Positions 13,386 to 56,600 of a DNA stretch of 64,000 bases are shown piece by piece (within the stretch, counting starts at the first letter, position 1; the number at the start of each line of letters is the position of its first letter). The stretch covers positions 525,109 through 589,108 of the forward strand of contig JAEVLN010000007.1 in NCBI GenBank assembly GCA_018350325.1, in the 5' to 3' direction. Below the pieces are notes generated by a model. That model was not told the origin of the DNA. It was given only the letters and a program-made list of their open reading frames with translations, and ran no database searches. A program made the position numbers and the translations under genes. This stretch comes from Globodera rostochiensis (Eukaryota > Nematoda > Chromadorea > Rhabditida > Heteroderidae).

Positions 13386-16300
13386 TCATACTTCTTTGAT
13401 TGAAGAAGTAAAGGCGGAAATGTAACAAGGAGGAACAAAATGAGTAAATGTAAGTGCTCGAATTGCTGAAAATGTTGCAGCCAATCCGCCCAACAGTCCG
13501 AAAGCTTAAATTTTTTTTTTAAATTCAAAAATTTAAAAATTTAAATTGTACCGCTTATGAAGGTGCATACAAATAGCATTTTAACATCAGTGTAGTTAAA
13601 AACGCTAAATATATATTTTTAAACATTTTTTAATATTTTATTTTACTCAGAAATAGTGGCGCGTTGTTTAAATGACTCAAAATGCATTTCTATTTTTTTG
13701 TCCGCTTTGTTTAGCCAGGCTCGTCTCATTTCCATTTTTCTGAATAAATTACATTATATTAATTATACACAAACATTCAAATAAATTGGAAAATTTGTAA
13801 TATAGGAAAATGCTATTTATTTTAAATGGATTGATAACATTTTTATTCATAAATCAGTTTTTTTTATTTTAAAGTTTAATATTATTTTTTTGCTATTTAT
13901 AAATAAAAGATGAATTAAATTAGCAATACTTTTCCGCGGCATTTAAAAATAAATAGCAAATGGGCGGAAAGATCAATGACATTGAACTTTGTGTTGAGCC
14001 ACCGCTTAAATCCAATAGTGGACCAAATGTTGGCACTGATTCGGCCACAAAAATTGCCAATCCCAACACAGCCGCACGGACCAACACTCGTTGGATGCCA
14101 AATTCTATATATTATGAATTTTTTCATAAAAAATTAATAAATAAATATAATTTTATCAAAAAAAAAACATGTTGAATATTCACACTAAAGCTATTAACAT
14201 TTTTATTTTGTTTTTAAAATTAAAAATATGTATTGATAAAATAGAAAAAGACTTATAATATACTTGGAGGGACTTTACAAAATTTTTCAGCCGTCTGATT
14301 TATTGGGTTAAGCACAATGATAACGCTGAATATGGCGTGTCCAGTTATTAAAAAATTAGCCAACTAAAAAAAATTAATGTCTAAAAATTAAAACATTTAA
14401 AAAAACGATTTGCCTGTTGAATCCAGACATGCTGAATTGAGCTGGTCACTGAATCTCTCAAACTGTTTCCGTAGACAAAATAACCAAACAGACAAACCGG
14501 TAAATACAAAAGGGTCAGAACTGAAAAAGAATATTTAATTAAATTTTAAACGTAAAATTAGAATTTTTATAATAAAAAGTTTTAACCAATAAATGCAAGG
14601 ATGGATGATTTGGTAAAATCTTCAGGCTTCTTCATGTCGTGTTGAGTTGTCGGAAAGCCTAAAATTAATTGCAAAAATAATGTCCTATTTTGCAGCATAT
14701 AAATATTCTCACATTTTTATTGTTTATTATTATATATTTAGTTCGGAATATAGTGTAACTGTGCTCCCCTCCCCTCCTCCCCCCCCCATCCCCTCCCTCC
14801 TCAAGAACGGCCAAGAAATCATCGAGATCTATCTGAGCTTCATCGGGCGGCAGCGTAGCTCAGTCGGGAGAGCACCCAACCGGACATTGGAAGACTCCGG
14901 ATCGTTCCCGGGCGTTGTTTGCCTTTTTCCTCGGGAAAAGGGTATTAGCCAGAGGCGAGGAGAAAATCGAGAGGATTTCTTGGCAACGGGCCCAACACGT
15001 TCACTGGTAGCACCGGATGGTTGCCCACCCGTCGCCAGCTGGTGATTGATCAGACCATCGATCGATCTGGACCGAGGGACCGGTCCCGTGAAGGAAAGAG
15101 CTGTAAGGAAGCGTGTCCAGCTGGCTGGGACGGTTAAAACGCCTACGGCGGGGGCATAAGATCCATAAGAGAGACGGCTCGTGGGACGCCCCGGTAGCTC
15201 AGTTGGTAAGAGCATTGGTTCTGGGTGTGAAGCTGATCACTGCACCGAAGGTCGTAGGTTCGATTCCTGCCCGGGGCTACCTCTTATGCCCCCGCCGTAG
15301 GCGTTTTAACCGTCCCAGCCAGCTGGACACGCTTCCTTACAATAGTGATTTTTATATTTTTGGACTAGATAACCGGATTTTATTGGATTTGGGTACATCC
15401 CGATTATTCAAATTTGAATTTAGAGTAATTTAAAAATTAGGATCCGTACCAGGATCCACAAATTTCTAAATGGTTTTCCGGATATTAATGTTAAAATGCT
15501 TATTTTAAACAAAAAATTTTCTTTGAAATTGACCTGAATGCCCTCCGTATGCAAATAATATGGTGCCCAATGAGAGAAAATAATTTGTCGGATTTATGTT
15601 AATTTGATGGTAAGAATGAGGTGCACAAGTTGCTGAATCCATTGATGCTCCAATGCAAATTAACACAGCGGCAAAAGTTGTTGTGCAAGCAGAAATAATG
15701 CCGGCCCATCGAAAATAATTAATTTTGTATTAATTTATCAAAAAATATTTAAATCTCAATTATTTTTACGTTTTAGTAAATTTTTGAGCATTTAGATCTT
15801 TTCAAAATTTGTTATTACAATATAAAGCAAAAAAATTAAATCTTAATAATAACAAAACAAATCTATCTATTGGATATAATTATAAATATTTAAACAATTT
15901 AAAATTTGTACAAAAATTATAAAATTTATAAAGTTTGTAAGTTGCTTTACATATTGTTTTTAAAAAGAGTTTTTGTCTAGTGATCTGTCCAAATTAAATT
16001 TATAACTTTGTATTAATAAACTCAGTTGTTTTATAATAAATTTCGATCAAATTTTAAATTAAAACTTAATAAAAAATTCAATAAATTATATTTTTAGCAC
16101 CCGAAATCCTCTGGAGATTTGAGCAAAGTTGCCGGGAATAGCAAAAATGCGATAGCGATGATCAGCAAACAAAAGCTGATGTCAACACCGGTGAACACTT
16201 TGACAAATTGGTGAATGTTCTTTGAGGACAGCAGCAGGAAAACAACAGCGATGGAAAATTGATTGAGTAGCACAAAAATGTTGGCAACACAACTAAATTA

Positions 16301-18650
16301 GGTAAATGAAAGAGCATTAAATTAATTAAAAAATAGTTAAAAATAAACACTAATTAGTATATTTTTGCAAAACATTGAACTTAAACAATAAAAAGAGGAC
16401 CAGAATTTCCCGGGAATTTTAGAAATTCTAAAATTTACCACTTTGGCGGGAAATTACGAAAATTTTGGAATTGAACAATTGAAGGAACAAAATACATTAA
16501 TTAAAGAAGAAATTTTGAATTCGTTAAAAAATAAATTTCAAAAATTTTCACATATATATTAAATAATATTTTTAAATAATAAAAAATATTAGTGTACTTC
16601 CAAAATGAATAATTTCCAGTAATTGCAGTAATTAAAAGAAGTGAAAGTTTATTCTATGAAATAATTTAAAAATTTCCAAGATTAAAAAGTCAAAATATCA
16701 CCTTAAAATGTTTTCTTTGTGAAAAAGAAATGTAAATTTTCGCCTTTCCAATTTTGTTGCAATTCAATAGAAATTATTTTGTGTATTGCATAAAGAAATT
16801 ATTTTCTTTTTGTTCATTCATTTGAAATTGCTATTCATATTCCACAACAAAAAGTATATAAACACAACGCAATCTTAGCACAAAATTGATAACCAACACT
16901 TTCATTAAAAATTGCTTTTTTTTTACAAAAATAATATTTGAATATTCATTTTTAAATCTTAATTTCTATGCTCTTTTTAACTTTATATGCTAAAATATAA
17001 AATTAAATTAACGCTATAAAAATAAAATTTGAAACGAAAAATTAAAACATTTTCTTTTCACCAAAGAGTAAGGCACTTGTAACTAGTGTTAGGCACGGTA
17101 CGGTATTACCGCGATTATTACATTTTCGGTATTTTACCGAAATACCGATACCGAAAAACCTCATTTGCCTAACACTACTTGTAATCGGTAATAATTGATG
17201 ATATACAAAGCTGCATAAAAACCTTTTATTATTAATTTTTTTTAAAGAGAAATTATACTAAAGTATTTACGTTTATAATTGCATGCGCAATTTTATTGGC
17301 ATCAGCCGCTCAATTATCCGTTGATGAGAAAAAAGCGGCAGATGCAGGACAAAATGCAGATGGCGGAAGAAACGCTAAAGCACTGGACAAAAACTCGGAA
17401 TTGCCGAACCCGACAACAGGATTGCCGAACCCGACAACAGGATTGCCGAACCCGACAACAGGATTGCCGAACCCGACAACAGGATTGCCGAACCCGACAA
17501 CAGGATTCCCGAACCAGACGACAGGATTGCTGAACCCGACGACAGAATGCCCGAATCCGATGACTGGATGGCCAAATCCGATGACTGGAGTGCCAAATCC
17601 GGTGACTGGAGTGCCAAATCCAATGATTGGAGTGCAGAATCCGATGACTGGAGAGCCAAATCCGGTGACTGGAGTGCCAAATCCAATGATTGGAGTGCAG
17701 AATCCGATCACTGGAGTGCCGAATCCGATGACTGGATGGCCAAATCCGATGACTGGAGAGCCAAATCCGGTGACTGGAGTGCCAAATCCAATGATTGGAG
17801 TGCAGAATCCGATGACTAGAGTGCCGAATCCGATGACTGGAGTGCCGAATCCGATGACTGGAGTGCCGAATCCGATGACTGGAGTGCCAAATTCGATGAC
17901 TGGATGGCCAAATCCGGTGACTGGAGTGCCAAACCCAATGACTGGAGTGCTGAATCCGATGACTGGATTGCCAAATCATTAACTCTATGATTAACCCATT
18001 CACTAACTTATGGCATATTTTCAATAAATCCTACCCAATAAAAAAATGTCATGTTTCCGTGGAAATATTAGCAAAAGTGTTAGTATACCCTAAGATAATT
18101 ATGAATATATATAATTTTACCGAAATTTTTTGCCCAATGATCGTTCACACATCTCCGGGTATGGCTGATGGCAATGCCTTTCACGATAAATTGAAGGCCA
18201 TCTTCGCCTTAAAAGTACCCAACACTTTCCGAGCATAATCGATGTTGATACAGTCATTACTAAAAATTTATTTTTATAATAAAATAGAAATAATTTAATA
18301 TAGAGCCTTTTTTTATAAAATTAATGTGTATATAAAAAATAATTGTTTAAAAGTATATTAAAGTAATTAATAAATATATATTATTCTTTAATAGTTTTAA
18401 CATACAGGTCAAGGCGACGTTCAACGTCAGCCCCGGCACTAGGCCTAAATGTTTAAATTTATATATATTTAAATAAAAAATGTTTACCAGATTGTATAAT
18501 TGCTGTGGGTAATGCGACAATTCCGCCGCCGGCCATTTGGGCCACAATGAAAAATGCAGCGACAAAAAGATTGATGCCGTGCCGATTTCGATGCGCTTCA
18601 AAGCTTCCGATTTCTTCAATTTCATTATTTTTGGTATTCAAATTATTCAT
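13386..18650 (-). CDS. Amino-acid transporter, Aa_trans family (SLC36/AVT-like), 475 aa
   Basis: Twelve exons (minus): 18488-18650, 18406-18444, 18121-18259, 16101-16292, 15534-15709, 14587-14658, 14414-14520, 14264-14363, 13930-14104, 13647-13739, 13552-13604, 13386-13504. They total 1428 nt with all phases joining. The family moves amino acids across plasma or endolysosomal membranes, usually with protons. Diagnostic stretches are MAGGGIVALPTAIIQSG (exon 1, first TM helix), CWVLLRRRWPS (exon 3), VLLNQFSIAVVFLLLSSKNI (exon 4), AYGGHSGFPTTQHDMKKPED (exons 5-6), VYGNSLRDSVTSSIQ (exon 7) and FGPLLDLSGGSTQSS (exon 9). The last helix is FGLLGGLAATFSAIRALTF. Length and about 11 hydrophobic helices fit the family. 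Oddities: exon 7 has a GC donor (CAG|GCAAAT), the acceptor of exon 5 lacks the AG, intron 3 hosts an antisense repeat gene, and intron 5 hosts a tRNA-like element. Substrate cannot be read from sequence. Confidence 0.92.
14848..14925 (+). other. tRNA-like head with good A box, degenerate B box
   Basis: TAGCTCAGTCGGGAGAGC is an excellent tRNA D-arm and pol III A box. Forty bases on, GGATCGTTCCC stands where the B box GGTTCGANTCC belongs. No full cloverleaf forms. It resembles the head of a tRNA-derived SINE. Confidence 0.5.
15103..15340. repeat. Perfect 59-bp inverted repeat around a tRNA-like sequence
   Basis: Arm 15103-15161 begins GTAAGGAAGCGTGTCC. Arm 15282-15340 is its exact reverse complement over all 59 positions. 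The 120-bp loop holds the tRNA-like sequence. Perfect identity suggests recent origin or active maintenance. Confidence 0.9.
15188..15278 (+). tRNA. tRNA-like sequence with enlarged anticodon loop (Thr-like arms)
   Basis: The acceptor stem GCCCCGG/CCGGGGC pairs fully. The D arm is GCTC/GAGC, the T arm GTAGG TTCGATT CCTGC, the variable loop AGGTC, and the A and B boxes are perfect. The anticodon stem TTGGT/ACCGA encloses 24 nt instead of 7. Either a 17-nt intron is present, or the sequence is a degenerate copy: the base at position 33 would be C, not the near-invariant T, and no anticodon can be read safely. The D and T arms and ACCGAAGGTC recall tRNA-Thr. No T-run terminator follows directly. 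Confidence 0.45.
17084..17177. mobile_element. 94-bp hAT-type MITE
   Basis: Perfect 12-bp terminal inverted repeats TAGTGTTAGGCA and an 8-bp flanking duplication CTTGTAAC/CTTGTAAT (one mismatch). The inside is palindromic CGGTATTACC/GGTATCGG sequence. It lies in transporter intron 3, just upstream of the antisense repeat gene. Confidence 0.8.
17248..17982 (+). CDS. Secreted PNPMTG-repeat protein nested antisense in transporter intron 3
   Basis: The open frame reads KVFTFIIACAILLASAAQLS, a good signal peptide with an AxA-like cleavage site, then VDEKKAADAGQNADGG, then about 27 tandem heptads of the type PNPMTGV to a TAA at 17980-17982. AATAAA lies about 40 bp on. No ATG opens the signal peptide in this exon: the codon before KVF is ACT, and a possible acceptor (TTTTTTAAAG) lies just upstream. 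The start may therefore be in an undetected first exon, or lost. The heptads begin as PNPTTGL and change to PNPMTGV, PNPVTGV and QNPMTGE in higher-order blocks. Proline- and asparagine-rich low-complexity repeats suggest an extended structural or surface protein. Function is unknown. Confidence 0.55.
   Translation, partial: RNYTKVFTFIIACAILLASAAQLSVDEKKAADAGQNADGGRNAKALDKNSELPNPTTGLPNPTTGLPNPTTGLPNPTTGLPNPTTGFPNQTTGLLNPTTECPNPMTGWPNPMTGVPNPVTGVPNPMIGVQNPMTGEPNPVTGVPNPMIGVQNPITGVPNPMTGWPNPMTGEPNPVTGVPNPMIGVQNPMTRVPNPMTGVPNPMTGVPNPMTGVPNSMTGWPNPVTGVPNPMTGVLNPMTGLPNH
17401..17980 (+). repeat. 21-bp minisatellite coding the heptad array
   Basis: About 27.6 copies of a 21-bp unit (GCCAAATCCGATGACTGGAGT type). 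Because 21 is a multiple of three, several frames on both strands stay open along the array, giving long shadow ORFs. Confidence 0.92.
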
Positions 18651-20059: not shown

Positions 20060-20283
20060 TTAGTTGGGGCACCTAGGTATCGGGGTCCAGTTTTTTGGTT
20101 TCTCCTTTAATTACAATTTGAATTATTTAATTCATTATTATATAAATTGGCCACAAAAAGAAAAAGGCAACCAACCTTCGGCCTCGGTGGAGGCTTTTCT
20201 TTCTTTCCATCACCGCCACCGCAGCCGGAGCACAAAGCCACAGCCAAAATGAGAAGAACAATGAATTGGATAAAAAATTGCAT
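20060..20283 (-). CDS. MQFF-family secreted peptide, copy 1 (50 aa)
   Basis: Exon 1 20176-20283 (36 codons, phase 0) and exon 2 20060-20104 to TAA. The signal peptide is MQFFIQFIVLLILAVALCSG. The mature part is CGGGDGKKEKPPPRPK plus EKPKNWTPIPRCPN, a basic, proline-rich peptide with two cysteines. The intron starts GTTGGTTGCC and ends AATTAAAG. Eight copies of this first exon exist in the window, nearly identical over the signal peptide and intron but different in the mature part. A relic of the terminal exon, with its TGACGTCA tail, persists downstream at 19912 though translation already stops in exon 2. Function is unknown; a secreted effector or defence peptide is only a guess. Confidence 0.65.
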
Positions 20284-22964: not shown

Positions 22965-23185
22965 TTAGATCTCGGGGGGGTCGTGTCTTGATCTCTCAAT
23001 CGGTACCTTTAATTACAATTTGAATTATTTAATTCATTATTATATAAATTGGCCACAAAAAGAAAAAGGCAACCAACCTTCGGCCTCGGTGGAGGCTTTT
23101 CTTTCTTTCCATCACCGCCACCGCAGCCGGAGCACAAAACCACAGCCAAAATGAGAAAAACAATGAATTGGATAAAAAATTGCAT
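22965..23185 (-). CDS. MQFF-family secreted peptide, copy 2 (49 aa)
   Basis: Exon 1 23078-23185 (36 codons) and exon 2 22965-23006. The signal peptide MQFFIQFIVFLILAVVLCSG and CGGGDGKKEKPPPRPK match copy 1. Exon 2, VPIERSRHDPPEI, is unrelated to copy 1's exon 2. The joint is phase 0 and splice sites are GTTGGTTGCC/AATTAAAG as in copy 1. The terminal-exon relic with TGACGTCA lies at 22803. Near-identity of intron and first exon with copy 1 shows recent duplication, so the exon 2 difference is notable. Confidence 0.65.
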
Positions 23186-26767: not shown

Positions 26768-27115
26768 TTAGTCTTCTGGGATCTGCAAATACATTTTTTA
26801 TTATTTTTTATTTAACATTCAGAATCAGGAAAAACCATATCAAGAACTCACCTTCTTCTGCATGCTTGTTCCTCCACTAGTTCCTTTAATTACAATTACA
26901 TGAATTATTTAATTCATTATTATATAAATTGGCCACAAAAAGAAAAAAAGCAACCAACCACCACCATAAGCATAAGCCGATGGCGGAAGTCGTCCACCCG
27001 GTCCTTGTAAAACTGGCGGTAGCGGCTTTTCTTTCTTTCCATCACCACAACCGCAGCCGGAACACAAAGCCACGGCCAAAATGAGAAGAACAAAAAATTG
27101 GATAAAAAATTGCAT
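26768..27115 (-). CDS. MQFF-family secreted peptide, copy 3 (67 aa)
   Basis: Exons 26959-27115, 26852-26883 and 26768-26782. The signal peptide MQFFIQFFVLLILAVALCSG is followed by CGCGDGKKEKPLPPVLQGPG, GRLPPSAYAYGG, then GTSGGTSMQKK and IPED. The exon 1/2 joint is phase 1 and the exon 2/3 joint phase 0. The terminal exon has only four sense codons before TAA, and TGACGTCA follows in the 3' UTR. The glycine-rich, proline-rich mature part is longer than in copies 1 and 2 owing to insertion before the donor. This copy defines the three-exon form of the family. Confidence 0.62.
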
Positions 27116-29019
27116 TTTTCTTAAAATGTTTTTTAATTTTTTGGGTTTTATAAATGGCAAAAAGATATTTTAACTAATGAATGAATATATTCAGAAAAAT
27201 GATTTATTAATAGAAGGTTTGGATTCTTTTAATGTGAAAATATTTGCCAATTTCAGCCCTTAAATGGGAATATTTTTGTTTCCACTCACATGACAAAAGT
27301 AAAAATTGCAGCAAAGAAATGTGCAAAATATTCATACTACAAAATTTATTAATTTTATCTGGCAAGCCAAAATGTACATTAATTTATTTATATATATACT
27401 TTGTGGTTTAAATAAAAATGTAGTCAGAAAAAACAGAAATATTATTCATAAAAAATTATTCATTATATGTTTTCAAATGCACAAATCAACAAAAGCATGT
27501 GTTTGGCACAAATATTGATTGACGAAGTGCCAAGCTCGTGAAAATTTTGATGAATATTGTTAAGGAATTGATCCAAACTACAATAAAATTTGTTTTCACT
27601 TTTTTTTTACGCAAACTTCAAATTTTCTGTTCGTGTTAGACCCGGACCAGGCCCGGATTTTTGCGGCCCGGCATACCGACTTCCAAGTTTCGAAATTTTT
27701 GAGGTCGTCGGCACCCATCCCAGCTGATGTGCTTGCCATTGTCACAACAAATCGATCGTCATCGTCAATTAATGACGCAAAAAGCGGAAATTTTCTGTTT
27801 ACCCTTGGGGCATTATTATGCAAATATAACAAACTATACTTTTGCAAAAAACTATTTTATAAATTATCGGAATCTTTGTGAAGAAGGTTCATCAAATTTT
27901 TGCAAAATTAAGCAATGTCGATGCCTCTCATCGGATAAAAAAGATATAGTCTAGCAGTCTTTTGGGTTTGATAGAGAATTTTGTAGGCTCTTTCCAAATA
28001 GGTTTTTGCAGAAAAAAAATTTATGCTCTCAGGGATTTTTTTCCAAAAATCACCCCCATATTCAGTTATTTTGGAATGTCGGGATCTCCACGAAGGAGGT
28101 GTCTGATCTAAACTTAACATCAAAAACGCCAAAGATTCTTTTTTAAATTTATAAAATATCTAGGCAAGAACATTAACAAAATTCCATTTGATAATGAAAT
28201 ATTTATTTTAACGAATTTGTTATAGATAGTTCAAATTTTGCCCTCATTTAAATTGACGTTTAACATTCAAATTGATGACACTGAGTATAATAATGGAATC
28301 AGTTATTTGTTCCATTTGACTTGTGTTGGGCGAGAATTAAATAATTTTTATTTTGAAACAAAAAGATGGCGAAAAATGTACGCAAATTTCACTCGTTAAT
28401 AATGGCATGGCATTTTCAATTTTAAACAATTCATTTTACAAGAACATTTGTTAAGTAAGGAATAATAAACATAAGAAAAAACAAAGTTGTTTTTTATGAA
28501 AATCTCAAATTTCAAGAATGCTTTCAAAATACAAAAAAAAAGTCTCAAATGAACAACTTTTGGTGAAATATCAACCAAACAATACCTATAGCAGAATAAC
28601 TACCCAAAATAAATATATTGCTTTATGAAAAACAGCCAACAAATTTATGTAACAAATAATTCATGTGAAAAAAGAACAGACAAAAACTTTTTAAAAAAAT
28701 ATAAAAAGAAATTGAAAATTCGAACAAAATGCCTTCAACAAAATGACGTCATCTGTTAGTCTCCACGAATCTTTTGGAGTGATCCTATATTCTTTAATTA
28801 CAATTGCATGAATTAATTTAATTGTTTTATATATAAATGGCAAAAAAAAATTAAACACAAAATTATTGCTACGTATACAAATAATTTAACTCGTAAAGGC
28901 TATGCTTTTTTTTCATTTATTTAAAGTTGTTATTATATTTAAATTTAAACAAAACAAACTTTTTGGCCGACTTTTAGCGAAAAGGGGGTTTTTTATTCCA
29001 GTCGGGCGCACTTTTTCTT
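27116..29019. other. Repeat-module sequence
   Basis: This holds the MQFF upstream flank (27120-27420), a segment at about 27625-27850 resembling about 30600-30710 (ATCGTCATCGTCAATTAATG shared), a single-copy cousin of the 82-bp minisatellite unit at about 27950-28115, a roughly 260-bp duplicate of 25650-25900 at about 28130-28400, and MQFF tail with TGACGTCA at 28745. Confidence 0.55.
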
Positions 29020-29103
29020 TCTTTCCATCACCGCCGCGACCACAGCCGGAACACAAAGTCACAGACAAAATGAGAAAAACAAAAAATTGGATAAAAATTG
29101 CAT
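29020..29103 (-). pseudogene. MQFF copy 4, broken by a 1-bp deletion and intron loss
   Basis: The first-exon sequence begins ATGCAATTTTTATCC, one T shorter than in the other copies. The frame becomes MQFLSNFLFFSFCL and stops. The donor and intron are also missing: the exon runs straight into the region matching the exon 2 tail of other copies. Confidence 0.75.
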
Positions 29104-29944
29104 TTTTTTTTTTTCTTAAAATGTTGTCAATTTTTGTGGGGGTTCGACTTTTTCGAATTAATTTAATGAATTATTTAAATGGCAAAATATGGTTAAACTA
29201 ATTAATGAATATATTCACAAACAATGGCGGAATCATTTAATTAATAGAGGAATTCAAATTGTTTTTTTTTGTTTTCAAATGTACAAATAAACAAAAGCAT
29301 CTGTCTGGCACAAATATTGATTGCGACGAATCACCAAAACATGCTCAAAAATAAAACAATTCCGGTAGTTACTACCGCCAGGCCAACTCATCGCCACCGG
29401 GGCCATCTTAGCTCCAGCTAGCCATTTCAGCACCGCCATTCCGAAAACCCCCGAATGTTAAAATATGTAATTTCAACCTTGTCTAAAAAAGCTCAAACCA
29501 ATGCGAAAAGGCTATTTTTTAGGCCTGCATTCATCAGAACATTAAGCACAAAAAACATAAAAATCCGGTCTCTAATAATTATGTATCTTAACAAGAAAAA
29601 CAATTTTCGTGTTAATCGAAACGACCTAATGCGTGCACATCATCAGGGTTACCTAGAGTTTTAGAACAAGTTCGAGTCGAGTTTTGAGTTTGAAACCCCT
29701 CGGGGGTTTCAAGCGGCAACCCGGATGCGCGTTTAAACTGAAGACTGCGCTGCTTTCACGACTGAAATGTTTTCTGATTTTTTTGTTTACATTTTGTCTT
29801 TGACTTTGATGATGAGCCGCCCCAAGCAAGTTATTGAAAACCAGAAATGCATTTTATTCAAAAGGGCAACAAATTCAAAAATAATAAATTGAATTTATGA
29901 AAATCAAAAAATAATAAATTCGTTTGGTTTGATCAAGACTTCTT
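29104..29944. other. No gene seen
   Basis: MQFF-flank sequence to about 29260, then unassigned DNA. A strong short palindrome GAAACCCCTCGGGGGTTTC lies at about 29692. Short plus ORF 29455-29664 lacks any signature. Confidence 0.5.
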
Positions 29945-32471: not shown

Positions 32472-33474
32472 TTTATTTGCTTGCATATTTATTCATCTTT
32501 CTTTCTCCTTTCGGGCATTTATTTGTTTCTTTCCAAATTGAATTTTTTTCCTATTAAAAAACTCGCTCATTTTGTTCAAAAACAAATTTTTTTATTAATT
32601 AACTAGGAAGAGCATTTTTGTTTAGTTTCAGAAAGCTCAAAATAAAATTTTGGGATTGCGACTTTTTAGTGGCAATAAATGTCATTTGGTGTTTATGCGC
32701 TGTTATTGCTTTTGACGTTTCGGATATAAATCTGTAGAAATAATGCGATTTAAACCCGTGATTCTATCAAGGGCAAGTGGAACTTTAACCGTTTTTATTT
32801 AGTTAAATATTGAAAAATGGCTTAAAGTTTATTAATGACTTATCTGAAATTAATTGCTTCACTGAAATCGGAAAATCGATTTACCCAAATCACGTTACAG
32901 TAGCCCCAATAGACGGTCAGTGTCATGTGTTTGCATCCGCCCCATGGCATTACTTTTAATTGAAATGACGTCATCTTTAGATTCTACGGCATGCAAATAA
33001 AGTTTTTATTATTTTATTTGACATTAAAAATCAGAAGCCTTAAAGAATGCGCACACTCTCCAGCATCATTTCCTTTTTTAAATTAATTATATTATTATAT
33101 ACTTATAAGATTGGCCAAAAAAAGAAACACTACCAGCCACAAAAAATTTACAAAAAAATTTGTCTCAAAAAATTCCTGTTTGACAACAATGTACAATAAT
33201 TAAATTAATTGTTCATAAAGAAATCACTGTCTTTTTTATCATTTCAAAAAGTTGTTATAAAAAACCATTTAAATTTAACCAAAACAGACCTTAGTCCGAG
33301 TCATAAGACGCAGATTTCCTTAAAAACAATTTAAATGAATTAATTCAATTTATATAATATTGGCCACATATAAATAAAAAACAAAAACACCCACCACTTA
33401 AGCTTCCAACCATCAGGCGGCCCGTTTTTAGTCCCCATACTCTGTAGCGGCTTTGTCGGCTTTTCTTTCTTCGA
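32472..33474. other. Intergenic; MQFF 3' flank
   Basis: No gene. The MQFF tail is recognisable at about 32960-33010 (TGACGTCA at 32967), with the terminal acceptor changed from GCAG to GCATG. Confidence 0.55.
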
Positions 33475-33561
33475 TTAATCATTCTTTCCAAAACAATTGC
33501 CGCCGGAACACAAGGCCACAGCCAAAATGAGAAGAACAAAGAATTGGATAAAAAATTGCAT
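33475..33561 (-). pseudogene. MQFF copy 5, prematurely stopped (28 aa)
   Basis: The signal peptide MQFFIQFFVLLILAVALCSG is intact. The mature part is only GNCFGKND before TAA. After the stop the same frame stays open (EKPTKPLQSMGTKNGPP) up to the usual donor position, so a nonsense change is the simplest explanation. A very short secreted peptide cannot be excluded. The terminal-exon acceptor is also damaged. Confidence 0.6.
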
Positions 33562-40618: not shown

Positions 40619-40839
40619 TTAGAAGGCCTCTCTGATGTATGGTTTTTCCTCCAGCGTTCCTTTAATTACAATTCGAATTATTTAATTCATTATTATATAA
40701 ATTGGCCACAAAAAGAAAAAGGCAACAAACCACCAGCAGCAGGCGGTCGCTTTGGTGCTTTCTTTCCAAAACAATTACCGCCGGAACACAAAGCAACAGC
40801 CAAAATGAGAAGAACAAAGAATTGGATAAAAAATTGCAT
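40619..40839 (-). CDS. MQFF-family secreted peptide, copy 7 (48 aa)
   Basis: Exon 1 40734-40839 (35 codons plus one base) and exon 2 40619-40659. The signal peptide MQFFIQFFVLLILAVALCSG is followed by GNCFGKKAPKRPPAA and, through a phase-1 joint, GTLEEKPYIREAF. The donor is GTGGTTTG and the acceptor AATTAAAG. The GNCFGK stretch is shared with copy 5. The mature part has one cysteine. Unused terminal-exon sequence with TGACGTCA remains at 40470. Confidence 0.62.
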
Positions 40840-50453: not shown

Positions 50454-51015
50454 ATTGAAATGTTTTACGCATTTTTTTTAAAATTTAATAACAAATTTAA
50501 AAAAAATAGAAATCTTATTTGGAAAATGTTTCTTTTTTAATTTATTTTTTGGGAAGTCTGGTCTAAATGCATCCAAGTAGAAAAAATGAAATAAATAATT
50601 TAAATTTTTATAAAACTTTAAATAAAAAATTTTGAACAAAGCCTTATCCAAAAGAACATAATTAACAATCGAAATCAAAAGTATAAAAATTTGGAACAAT
50701 AACTTTATTTGTTAAAGAGTTGGTTATTTTTCTTGAAATTAAAAGTAATAAAACAAAATTAAATAATTGTGGAAAATCTGATTCCCCATATATTTTTTGT
50801 CCCGATTATTGATGTTAGCGAATTCATTAAACCCATTTCATATTTATATATAAAATAATAAAAATAAATAGTTTTATATGAAAAACTGGCACAATTTATG
50901 CAATTACATGTGAAAAACAAAGGTGCCGCCTGAACTGACAAAAACTTTTTGAAAAATAAAAAAAGAAATTGAAAATTTAGAGCACAATGCCTCGTTCAGC
51001 AGAATGGCGTCATCA
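50454..51015. other. Serpin 3' region and MQFF tail
   Basis: AT-rich with no ORF. From about 50880 the MQFF 3' flank is recognisable. Confidence 0.5.
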
Positions 51016-52767
51016 TTAGTTTTTGCGTTTCGAATCTGTAATTACAATTGCATCAAATATTTAAAATTTTTTTTATTATACAAAATTTTCACAAAAAAAA
51101 TTTAACACTAATTTGTAAAGTTACGTTTTTAACAACAAATAAATGCAAAATATTTTAGCTCATAAAGAATCCTTTTTGTCGTTAATTTAAGCAAACCAGA
51201 CTATTTGCTGGTTGCATAAAGCGGAAAAGCACAAGTAAATTCCCATAAAGCTATTATGTCCTTTTTATCATTTTAATTAGTTAATTTTCAAAAAATATTG
51301 GTTTTTTCTCTTGACGGAGTTTGTCCAAATTTACTCGATTCAATGATTATTTATTTAGCCAAAACTTACTTCTTCTAGTATAGTAAACATTTGCTTCTTT
51401 GTCGTATTCTTTATAATTATGAATTCATTATTATCTAATTATTGGCTACCATAAGAGAAAAAAAACTAACCCCCAATTTAATTATAAATGCATAAATCAA
51501 AAAAAAAATCAGCAATTTTTGGTATTGCATAAATAAAAAATAATTTAGCTTATAAAGCTATGCCCTTTTTTTGTCCCTTTAATTAGTTAATCATCAAAAA
51601 AATGTTTGGCCTTTACGGAAATTGGCCAATTTTATTCAATTAAATGATTATTTATTTAACCAAAAAAACTCACCTTTTTTCTTTAGGTCTACTTTTTCAA
51701 ATTCTTAAATTACAATTACTTATATATTCTTTGATTATAATTAAATGAGATAATTGAATTTATTAATATAAATTAGCCCAAAAAAAAATACTAACCCGCC
51801 CAAATTTACTCGATTAAAATGATTATTTATATAAGCAAAAAACTTACTAACGGCATTGAAAGAATCACCATTTTGTGCATCGTAATAAGTTATTCTTTCT
51901 TCAATTATAATTACATGAGATAATTTAATTAAACATTAATTACATGAGATAATTTATTAATTCATTATTATGGCCACAATAACAAAAAATCTAACCCCTC
52001 CGAATTTAGATTAAAATTATTATTTTATTTAAGCAAAAAAACTTACGGCTTCTACTGGCATTGAAAGAATCACCATTTTGTGCATCGTGATAAGTTATTC
52101 TTTCTTCAATTATAATTACATGAGATAATTTAATTAAACATTAATTACATGAGATAATTTATTAATTCATTATTATGGCCACAATAACAAAAAATCTAAC
52201 CCCTCCGAATTTAGATTAAAATTATTATTTTATTTAAGCAAAAAAACTTACGGCTTCTACTGGCATTGAAAGAATCACCATTGGCATCGTAATAAATTGA
52301 GTTCTCTTCAATTATAATTACATAAGATAATTTAATTAATTCTTATTATGGCAACAATAAAAAAAATCTAATCCCTCCAAATTTACTCGATTAAAAATCT
52401 AACCCGTCCAAATTTATTCGATTTGAGTATTTATTTAAGCAAAAACTTACGGCTTCTACCGTTCAAAGAACCACTTTTTACATAGCAATTAGTTTTATCT
52501 AAGTTAACTTTAATTAAAATTAAATGGTTTAATTCATTGTTAGGTATATAATATTCGCAACAATAAGAGAAAAATACTAAACCACATTATAAAGCAGCTA
52601 GCTATATTTTTTTTGTCATTTTTTAAAAGTTGGTTATTTATATTTAAATTTAAACAAAACAGACTTTTATCAGTTGACTCGCTTGAGTCTTTCCCAATAC
52701 AACCACCGCCGGAACACAAAGCCACAACCAAAATGAGAAGAACAAAAATTTGGATAAAAAATTGCAT
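51016..52767 (-). CDS. MQFF copy 8: micro-exon gene with tandemly duplicated exons (136 aa)
   Basis: Eight exons (minus): 52665-52767, 52451-52507, 52252-52305, 52047-52103, 51848-51898, 51674-51703, 51370-51408, 51016-51035. All seven introns are phase 1. Internal exons are 57, 54, 57, 51, 30 and 39 nt, each a multiple of three, and total 411 nt to TAA. Signal peptide MQFFIQIFVLLILVVALCSG, then GGCIGKDSSESTDK, INLDKTNCYVKSGSLNGRS, and three near-repeats of the type QRITYYDAQNGDSFNASRS. Charged short exons (KFEKVDLKKK, EYDKEANVYYTRR) and NSKRKN end it. Donors are GTAAGT or GTGAGT except for the first (GTCTGT). Introns 3 and 4 carry a roughly 205-bp direct duplication that copies an exon with its flanks. 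The terminal exon and following TGATGACG match the tail of other MQFF copies. Function is unknown. Confidence 0.72.
51850..52270. repeat. 205-bp tandem duplication carrying one micro-exon
   Basis: Units at about 51853-52058 and 52058-52263 are almost identical, from GGCATTGAAAGAATCACCAT through the intron words ATTACATGAGATAATTTATT and CTAACCCCTCCGAATTTAG. A further diverged unit follows at 52263. Confidence 0.85.
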
Positions 52768-53641
52768 TTTTTTTTCTTAAAATGTTTGTCAATTTTTGTG
52801 GGGGTTCGACCTTTTTAAATTAATAAAATTTATTTGAATATTTAAAACGTACAAAATATATTAATTCGAATTGTTTAATGTGAAAATATCTGCAATTTCA
52901 GCCCTAAATGGGAATATTTCTGCCCTATAGCACATGGCCACGTTTCCTTCCTCACATGACAAGAATAAAAATTTAACCATAGAATCGCCAAAGATTGATT
53001 TTATCTGACAATGCAAAATCAAAAATCCATTAATGTAAATATTATTTTATATTTTAGTGCTTTAAATGTAGTGTAAAAATTGTGTTTTAAAAGGCTGAAA
53101 ATTGGTGAAAAAGGCATTGGTTGATGGCATATGCCGTTTCTGAGGGTCTTAAATACCATTTAGGTCATTTTCGAGTTAAATTACTATTTGTATTTATTTT
53201 GTTGTTAAAGACAACAATAATTTAGTGTTTAATAGTGCCATTTATATATTAACAATTTAAATAATTGATCTAATTGTAATTAAAGAATAGAGGGTCACTT
53301 CAAAAGAACCGTGGAGGCTAAAGATAACGTCATTTTGTTGAAGGCATTGTGTTCGAATTTTTAATTTCTTTTATATTTAAAAAAAAGTTTTTGTCGGCTT
53401 TTTCACATAAATTATTTGTTACATAAATCTGTTGGCTGTTTTTCATAAAATATATTTTATTTTGGGTAAATTGTTAATATTTTTTTTCAGAAATAGGTAT
53501 TTTTAAAATCTATATTATTAATGTTCTAATTTTGGCTAATAATAATGCCGGATTTGTTTCTAGCAAAGTCGTAAAGATCAATCACAACGTCAAAATAATA
53601 AACATTTTTTTGTTGTCGCCCCCTCCCCCCATTGGAAAACA
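52768..53641. other. MQFF upstream flank and inverted tail
   Basis: MQFF flank to about 53060, a MANLS-type promoter block at about 53105-53165 without a peptide ORF, and an inverted MQFF tail (GATAACGTCATTTTG) at about 53320. The 3' region of X2 begins below 53641. Confidence 0.5.
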
Positions 53642-56600
53642 TCATTTGATCATCATTATGCACGTGAGGATGTAAAATGCAGCCGCAATGAACAGGATGG
53701 CCCAGCCGATCATGTGCCCATGGAGCACGGCCATGTACACGGCCAACTTGACGGCATGCCTCCAGTAGACCAGGCCATCCACAATGATCAAGTTGAAGGT
53801 GAACAGAAGCGCGGACGAAATTTGGCCGTCCATGAGCAGACTGTCGTTGCCGATCAGCACCGGTGGTGCATCTGCGGCATGCAACCAATGCAGGCGGAGG
53901 CCCGGTATAGTGGAATCGATAATGTGAGAGTTGAACATTTTGGAATCCTCAATTCCTAAATAAATTTTATTGCAAAATTTAAAATAAAAAAAAAATAAAT
54001 AAAATCTTCAAAAATTTAGGTAATATAAATATAAATAATTAATACCCGGTGGAACTGTAATGGATGCTCCTTGTGCAATTATTTCACGCTTTTTCCTTTT
54101 TGAACTAATTTCTTTAGAACTTTTATTAATTCTTCTATGACTCTAAAATGACAAACTTTACTTCTTTATTTTAAAAATATTTTTAATATTAATTTATACA
54201 CATAAAATTTAAATAATTTTCGATAGTTTTTTACTTTTTGAAATTTTTTGATAATAAATTCAAAGAAAAAATCCTGGAAAACTTGTGCAACATTTCCAAA
54301 CATTTCAACAAATTTTCGGCTTGATTTTATAGATTTACGCATCACATCTGCTGATTTTTTGGATCGTCTTTTAAAATTTGACGAAAATTTCCCACTAATT
54401 TTTGGTAGTTGAATATTTGAGCCTGAATTTGTTCCTTGGGCTTCTGATGGTTTTGGATTTTGTTGATTTCTTTTGAAAGATGGGTTTGGATTTTGTTGAT
54501 TTCTATTAAAATTTGATGAAAATTTCCCACTAATTTTTGGCAGTTGAATATTTGAGCCTGAATTTGTTCCTTGGGCTTCTGATGGTTTTGGATTTTGTTG
54601 ATTTCTTATAAAATTCGACGAAAATTTGCCCGTAATTTTTGATGGTTGAATATTTGGGACTGAATTTGTTCCTTGGGCTTCTGATGGATTTTGTTGATTT
54701 CTTTTAAAATTCGACGAAAATTTGCCCGTAATTTTTGATGGTTGAATATTTGGGACTGAATTTGTTCCTTGGGCTTCTGATGGATTTTGTTGATTTCTTT
54801 TAAAATTTGATGTAAATTTGCCCGTAATTTTTGATGGTTGAATATTTGGGACTGAATTTGTTCCTTGGGCTTCTGATGGTTTTGGATTTTGTTGATTTCT
54901 TTTAAAATTTGATGTAAATTTGCCAGTAATTTTTGGTGGTTGAATATTTGGGACTGAATTTGTTCCTTGGGCTTCTGATGGATTTTGTTGATTTCTTTTA
55001 AAAAAAGATAGTTTTGGATTTTGTTGATTTGTTTTAAAATTTGATGAAAATTTCCCACTAATTTTTGGTAGTTGAATATTTGAGACTGAAGTTCCTTGGG
55101 CTTCAGATGGATTTTGTTGATTTCTTTTAAAATTTGATGAAAATTTCCCACTAATTTTTGGTAGTTGAATATTTGGGAATGAATTTGTTCCTTGGGCTTC
55201 AGATGGATTTTGTTGATTTCTTTTAAAATTTGATGAAAATTTCCCACTAATTTTTGGTAGTTGAATATTTGAGACTGAAGTTCCTTGGGCTTCAGATGGA
55301 TTTTGTTGATTTCTTTTAAAATTTGATGAAAATTTCCCACTAATTTTTGGTTTTTGAATATTTGGGAATGAATTTGTTACTTGGCTTTCTGATAAATTCT
55401 GCATATCTTGCTGAGCTTGTTCAACAATTTTATTCAAAATTACATTGATTCTTTCATTTATTTGTTGATTTTCAGTAAAAATTTGCAGACTCAATTTTGC
55501 CATTTCAGCCGTTTCAATATTCCTTTCTGAATGAAAATGACAAATTTCTTTTTGTTTTTGATTATAAAATAGAATAAATAGTAAAGCATGATTTATTAAC
55601 CTGTTTCCAACACTTTTCTTTTGCCTTTATCATTCCCGTGGAAAGTTGCGTTCAACGAATTAAACAATTTGATCAGCCACACATAAAATGCATCCTTTTA
55701 ATAATTTTAATAATTTAAATAAAATGATTAAAATAAGAATTGCAACTTCAAACGGTGAAATTTGGCCGCCCATTAGTGGGGCTAAGCCCTCATTTATGTC
55801 GTGAATGTTGACATTGTAAAAGCGTTCCAACAAGTTTTGCTGCCGCTTGGCATTGTGTCCAAATTTGTACATCGACCGATTCAATTTTTTGAACAATGAT
55901 TCAACAGCCTTTTCCAATGTGCCCATTTGATCGCGGCGGCTTTGTTTACCCAACAATGAAAAGCGAAAGAGTTGCGCATCAAAGTCGAGCTCGTCAGATG
56001 CCATCATTAAGCATTGGTTTAAGCCGTCCGTTATGTCACAATCCGCTGAACAGTAAAAAAAATTATTCTAATTTTTAAATTAAAGCAATTTTAGAAAATA
56101 TATTCTATCATAAGCCTTGTTTATTATTGAAAGGTACGTACATAATATATTCATTCCAAAATATTTACTTTTTGGTTTTGGGAGGATAACGGATATTAAA
56201 ATCGACTTATCCGTATATATCCGCGGATATCCGGGATAACGGATACGAATTTCGAAAAATGAGACGGATACAAACGAAAACGGATTCAAAAGGCACGGAT
56301 AATCCGGACACGGATTTAAAAAATTGTATCCATGGACATCCCTGATTTTTAGACAATTTTTTTTGCGGAAAAATGTCGAATAAATACTGAAACATGTCAC
56401 AACATATGGGCTATTCAAAAACGTCCGAATATGTTTTGATATGAGCAAAAAATTCGTCCTAATTTTAAAAGTTTTCGGGAAAAGATATTTTTTTAGATCT
56501 TAAAACATATAAACCCATATAAAACCGGGCCCTAGTTATTTTTTTAAAAAAACAAATTTATCAGTATTTCGGTCGTCATCAAATGCTAGTAATTTGAAAA

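Follow-up and report, generated by a model that had tools for sequence, protein, structure and literature searches.

An eight-exon gene of Globodera rostochiensis for a predicted secreted protein, its middle probably grown by tandem exon and intron duplication

Structure of the gene

The stretch of DNA analysed here (the window) comprises 64,000 nucleotides (nt) of the potato cyst nematode Globodera rostochiensis, positions 525109-589108 of contig JAEVLN010000007.1 (C67), and all genome searches covered the 92.6-Mb, 80-contig assembly to which it belongs. The gene under study (the target) lies on the minus strand of the window, from 52767 to 51016. It has eight exons and seven introns, all of the latter GT-AG and phase 1 (7/7), while all six internal exons are multiples of three, as had been claimed in an original prediction made from the letters alone. 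The exons of that prediction, when spliced, give a coding sequence of 411 nt, which ends in TAA and encodes 136 residues. The parts of the gene are as follows.

52665..52767, minus strand: exon 1, 103 nt; start codon, hydrophobic N-terminus (predicted signal peptide), then KDSSESTDK; conserved in the family
52451..52507, minus strand: exon 2, 57 nt, or 48 nt according to the UniRef model; a copy of exons 3-5 that has diverged
52252..52305, minus strand: exon 3, 54 nt; repeat exon NSIYYDANGDSFNASRS
52104..52251, minus strand: intron 3, 148 nt; same sequence as intron 4
52047..52103, minus strand: exon 4, 57 nt; a mosaic, its 5' part as in exon 5 and its 3' part as in exon 3; missing from A0A914H7V9
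51899..52046, minus strand: intron 4, 148 nt; same sequence as intron 3
51848..51898, minus strand: exon 5, 51 nt; repeat exon RITYYDAQNGDSFNAV
51674..51703, minus strand: exon 6, 30 nt; lysine-rich
51370..51408, minus strand: exon 7, 39 nt; EYDKEANVYYTRR; like the C-terminal part of a G. pallida protein (P0006)
51016..51035, minus strand: exon 8, 20 nt; NSKRKN and stop

The UniRef protein A0A914H4C8 (P0001; 133 amino acids, G. rostochiensis) matches this locus residue for residue, with a single splice solution of eight exons, all in phase 1. The sole difference from the predicted model is the exon-2 acceptor, which lies 9 nt further in and leaves an exon of 48 nt, still frame-neutral. A second G. 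rostochiensis entry, A0A914H7V9 (P0002), equals P0001 minus exactly exon 4, and fits the target locus at every residue if exon 4 falls inside one 353-nt intron.

Chance was assessed by a free-phase exon-chaining score, using a generic splice matrix without training on the target gene, against 200 dinucleotide shuffles. The predicted exon lengths were recovered for seven of the eight exons (the last was 32 instead of 20 nt), with a score of 55.4; the best shuffle reached 25.8 and none of the 200 attained the real value. Eight exons were obtained in 1/200 shuffles, and at least seven introns all of one phase in 0/200. Chaining with the target's own splice matrix gave 158.0 against 8.8 for the best shuffle (0/200), a circular comparison which carries less weight. 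The target is a real gene and was read correctly in the original prediction.

Growth by duplication of exons and introns

Exons 2 to 5 are four copies of one exon. Three near-identical adjacent exons had been predicted, which is correct for exons 3 to 5 but leaves out exon 2, whose comparisons with exons 3, 4 and 5 were each equalled by 0/1000 dinucleotide shuffles. Exon 2 appears to be an older copy of the repeat exon. Duplication of an exon-plus-intron unit, also predicted, is plainly visible in the DNA:

51847..52256, minus strand: two head-to-tail units of 205 base pairs (bp), 99% identical, each made up of one intron and most of one exon

Introns 3 and 4 do not differ at any of their 148 bases, and the last 31 bases of exons 3 and 4 are likewise the same. 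Alignment reveals a central 21-base stretch common to exons 3, 4 and 5; 5' of it, exon 4 is the same as exon 5 save for one base (His versus Tyr), and on the 3' side it matches exon 3. A mosaic exon together with a copied intron would be expected from a single, recent unequal exchange within exons that are homologous. When a 30-base exon 4/exon 5 string was sought in the whole genome (≤ 3 mismatches), the only two matches were exons 4 and 5 of the target itself. Kinship extends to the introns, since for pairs 2-3, 3-4, 4-5, 6-7 and 5-7 no dinucleotide shuffle was as good (0/500 each), and with mononucleotide shuffles z ranged from 5.1 to 29.6 in all eight pairs compared. P0002 may be the product of the state before this last duplication, or a splice form which skips exon 4. 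The demonstrated source of change at the target is duplication, not splicing.

A clustered family around a common first exon

The first exon of the target is the same as that of an unnamed Globodera family with a MQFFIQFFVLLILAVALCSG N-terminus (MQFF; UniRef and NCBI entries P0003 to P0007 and P0009 to P0011). A count of loci with this signal exon, suggested along with the prediction, gave 24 places in the genome including the target, 21 of them on C67 (281-988 kb) and one on each of three other contigs (C30, C45 and C70), a clustered family which the original prediction had missed. Seven of these places are within the window, where a DNA search found eight, all on the minus strand. Besides the target, the members in the window and the 3' module that is shared with family members are:

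20203..20283, minus strand: family member, signal exon (C67:545311-545391)
23105..23185, minus strand: family member, signal exon (C67:548213-548293)
27044..27115, minus strand: family member, signal exon (C67:552152-552223); the annotated protein P0003 maps here as three exons (157, 32 and 15 nt)
29039..29125, minus strand: family member, 5' region, found by DNA match only (C67:554147-554233)
33469..33561, minus strand: family member, signal exon (C67:558577-558669); the match contains an in-frame TAA
37724..37801, minus strand: family member, signal exon (C67:562832-562909)
40756..40839, minus strand: family member, signal exon (C67:565864-565947)
50880..51040, minus strand: 3' module as queried, comprising the end of intron 7, the last exon and the 3' flank

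The 3' module has 17 genome matches, including the target itself, and BLAST over the 24 members placed it in 16, although the match assigned to one of them (locus L036) belongs to its neighbour. Both the homology of the first exon and the shared 3' module make the target a member of the MQFF family, and the same 3' module and upstream element are found in many G. rostochiensis members. Many members have their 5' and 3' ends in common and differ in the middle.

Other members whose 3' module is paired correctly are short. From start codon to 3' module they measure 262-608 nt in 14/14 cases, against 1727 nt in the target (the set of 14 leaves out the target and L036, and the position of the signal exon was taken as start where no ATGCAAT was found). 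The target is the long member of the family. Its expanded middle (query 284-1600) was not hit by any of the 47 further genome matches that were listed for the gene; the whole-gene DNA search scored only the best candidates and skipped common words, so these lists are lower bounds.

Elsewhere in the family, L036 (C67:428 kb) carries an in-frame duplication, in which a 66-nt exon and a near-identical 69-nt intron repeat the end of the preceding exon and its intron. This duplication is contained in UniRef P0009, the model of which is fused to another upstream N-terminus. At L038 (C45:2509.7 kb) a 30-nt unit is repeated 6.9 times inside the first open frame (GVHQPSTAHG type). Thus, members lengthen their middles in different ways. 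Models of other members built with the splice matrix of the target were mostly unusable, as other donors are used, and annotated proteins were taken instead. P0004 gave no GT/GC-AG splice solution on the genome. In the two other annotated members for which mapping succeeded, exons are asymmetric and introns of phase 0 occur, showing that an all-phase-1 layout is no rule of the family.

A copy of the 3' module also lies in the opposite orientation at 53318-53395 on the plus strand (C67:578426-578503), approximately 550 bp upstream of the start codon of the target. No first exon was seen beside it on that strand.

Upstream element

A 24-base element, ATTCCMATTTAAGGGCTGAAATTG, stands upstream of many family members in the alignment, with an example in the window at 27248-27271 (C67:552356-552379). 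Allowing ≤ 2 mismatches, it occurs at 56 places in the genome, 42 of them on C67, while the reversed control gave none. At the target it takes the following form:

52874..52922, minus strand: ATTCCMATTTAAGGGCTGAAATTG variant, shorter by one base, lying 107-155 bp upstream of the start codon (C67:577982-578030)

Ten further stretches around ATTCCMATTTAAGGGCTGAAATTG were inspected, and three of them (L086, L087 and L088) are followed downstream by a different kind of open frame, whose N-terminus is hydrophobic; by the filter used, no such frame was present in the remaining seven. From its distribution the element is taken as a sign of shared regulation of putatively secreted genes, and may serve as a handle for finding secreted genes that are co-expressed.

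The product and its relatives

The N-terminus of the target protein forms a hydrophobic helix in an AlphaFold model and is a putative signal peptide. No Pfam family scored above cut-off; sub-threshold Pfam rows and a sequence match in PDB (expect value (E) 0.028) were treated as chance. In three protein searches the relatives were all from Globodera (G. rostochiensis and G. pallida) apart from P0008 (E 2.7), a match likewise treated as chance. As a word-matching limit and a length window were common to all protein searches, the absence of relatives from other genera is weak evidence. Among the G. pallida proteins, P0006 ends in YYRRNSKRNY, compared with YYTRRNSKRKN in the target, and has IYHSAR twice.

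Interpretation

It is likely that the target is an eight-exon gene for a short, predicted secreted and probably unstructured protein, that it belongs to a clustered Globodera family, and that its middle has grown by tandem duplication of an exon together with its intron.

Several observations weigh against this reading in one part or another. The weaker intron pairs are near chance (1-2, 6/500 dinucleotide shuffles as good; 5-6, 1/500). Exons 6 and 7 are unrelated to exon 5, with 393/1000 and 378/1000 shuffles doing as well, and have no kinship to each other, so that duplication is established for exons 2 to 5 only. Since the 3' module was not found by BLAST in 8/24 members and there is an in-frame stop in 5/24 signal exons, part of the family array appears to be decayed or different. 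The C-terminal likeness to P0006 is modest (24/1000 shuffles of the mature parts score as high), and P0005 and P0007 are alike only in the N-terminus, their mature parts being equalled by 736 and 804 of 1000 shuffles. The AlphaFold model has a mean predicted local distance difference test score (pLDDT) of 44, with a helix at residues 2-18 as its sole confident part, and its alignment held only five sequences, which by itself lowers confidence. A dorsal-gland motif has been reported, the DOG box (known here from part of the literature on it), and it is not enriched upstream of family members (13 hits in 24 stretches of 500 nt, or 0.54 each, against 0.52 per 500 nt of random window), so it was rejected as a mark of gland expression. 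In addition, the public gene models for the target probably come from the line-19 annotation (PMC8359618), the pipeline of which, in the available portion of that paper, took RNA-seq merely as hints. Finally, P0002 may be a splice form, which would shift weight from germ-line change to splicing.

Comparison with known systems

The original prediction likened the gene to the micro-exon genes (MEGs) of schistosomes. The likeness stands as regards layout: a hydrophobic N-terminal exon, several short internal exons, all of them symmetric (6/6), no known domain and rapid divergence between relatives. It fails on size. In the part of PMC5825161 available, MEGs are defined by symmetric exons of 6-36 bp which make up about 80% of the coding region, whereas internal exons of the target are 30-57 nt, only one of the six is ≤ 36 nt, and together they form 288 of 411 nt (70%) of the coding sequence. 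Membership of the MEGs was therefore rejected. In addition, some exons of the target, unlike those of MEGs, are visible recent copies of one exon-plus-intron unit, and the likeness is drawn from layout, not from sequence. By analogy, the target would work like a micro-exon gene in that exons may join or leave in frame. Among the matches listed in the literature search, with subscription papers mostly outside its scope, no earlier micro-exon gene of Globodera was found.

The HYP effectors of potato cyst nematodes are also from Globodera and have common ends around a variable middle with repeats. According to the sections of PMC4177990 and PMC11228951 consulted, their whole variable domain is a single exon and the variation is genomic. 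HYP repeats thus lie within one exon, while those of the target are separate exons split by introns, and the HYP motif YERGGG is not in P0001. Because its eight-exon layout does not fit the HYP architecture, the target was not assigned to that group.

Variation in repeat number

As phase-1 introns lie on both sides of every internal exon, unequal exchange between repeat exons would always yield a frame-neutral exon, and the number of repeats may rise or fall in the germ line without damage to the frame. The product is putatively secreted, with a gland or some other secretory tissue as its probable source, and a change in repeat number might alter its binding or recognition; exon skipping would be a possible second source of length variants. 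It is conceivable, and put forward tentatively, that this is an accordion gene of a plant parasite, with symmetric exons recombining among themselves within the coding sequence. Each unequal exchange would then insert or delete one complete exon in frame, so that individuals of the species differ in the repeat number of a secreted, host-facing protein. This would correspond, at the level of exons, to the variation of HYP, and would have arisen independently in two or more members of the family.

Alternatively, variation might occur mainly by alternative splicing, as proposed for schistosome MEGs, P0002 being an exon-4-skipped transcript of the target locus. This is somewhat doubtful, without being far-fetched. 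The fit of P0002 across the 353-nt intron and the confinement of the exon 4/exon 5 string to the target speak in its favour, but a haplotype without one 205-bp unit would yield P0002 equally. Furthermore, the accession of P0002 (H7V9) is three steps from that of P0003 (H7V6), which is from a neighbouring locus, and about 1270 from that of P0001 (H4C8), a spacing which suggests two separate gene entries for P0001 and P0002. The identity of the last 31 bases of exons 3 and 4 also means that short reads could fake a junction between exons 3 and 5. A shorter allele or a second assembled copy accounts for P0002 as well as exon skipping does.

It is unlikely that the protein is a peptide precursor, in which every repeat exon would contribute a single peptide bounded by RSQR or dibasic sites, with processing in the secretory pathway as for neuropeptide-like precursors. 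P0001 does have RSQR at the junctions of exons 3/4 and 4/5 (residues 67 and 86), RR and KR near the C-terminus, and NAS sites at residues 64 and 83. However, none of G. pallida P0005, P0006 and P0007 has RxxR, and exon 5, the third repeat, is without a NAS site, so neither feature is constant; the idea was rejected as the cleavage sites are not conserved. Very unlikely is a decaying or non-functional tandem copy, with exons that are fossil repeats and a model without product, for while the in-frame stops in five of the 24 family copies, the abundance of tandem repeats in the window (53 rows) and the lack of a Pfam domain above cut-off are in its favour, all eight exons have stayed open and in phase after several duplications, to a degree that no shuffle matched (0/200), and fit two public proteins exactly.

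Under growth by exon and intron duplication, the worm would be able to vary the length of a protein that is likely secreted. The target is a readable example of the lengthening of a multi-exon gene for a putatively secreted protein, with the last step visible in the DNA as identical introns and a mosaic exon. Should populations differ in repeat number, the locus would offer a natural marker for rapidly changing proteins that face the host in a quarantine pest. Such variation would also suggest that nematodes, like flatworms, have evolved a micro-exon-like layout.

Other features of the window

Just upstream of the target, at 54166-55626 on the minus strand, there is an open frame of 486 codons with repeats of approximately 32 residues (KISGKFSSNFKRNQQNPSEAQGTNS type), for which no Pfam family was above cut-off. 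Another open frame, at 17236-17982 on the plus strand, contains a hydrophobic stretch close to the N-terminus and, after it, many 7-residue repeats (LPNPTTG, VPNPMTG). G+C in 2-kb blocks of the window ranges from 27% to 46% and is 28%-34% in 25/32 blocks; for two G. rostochiensis lines, values of 38-39% are given in the available part of PMC8359618. ARAGORN identified tRNA-Ser (GGA) at 14849-14920 and tRNA-Pro (TGG) at 15188-15278, both on the plus strand, of which only tRNA-Pro reached the Rfam gathering score. Between 46775 and 47473 lies an 83-bp tandem repeat of 8.5 copies with 98% matches.
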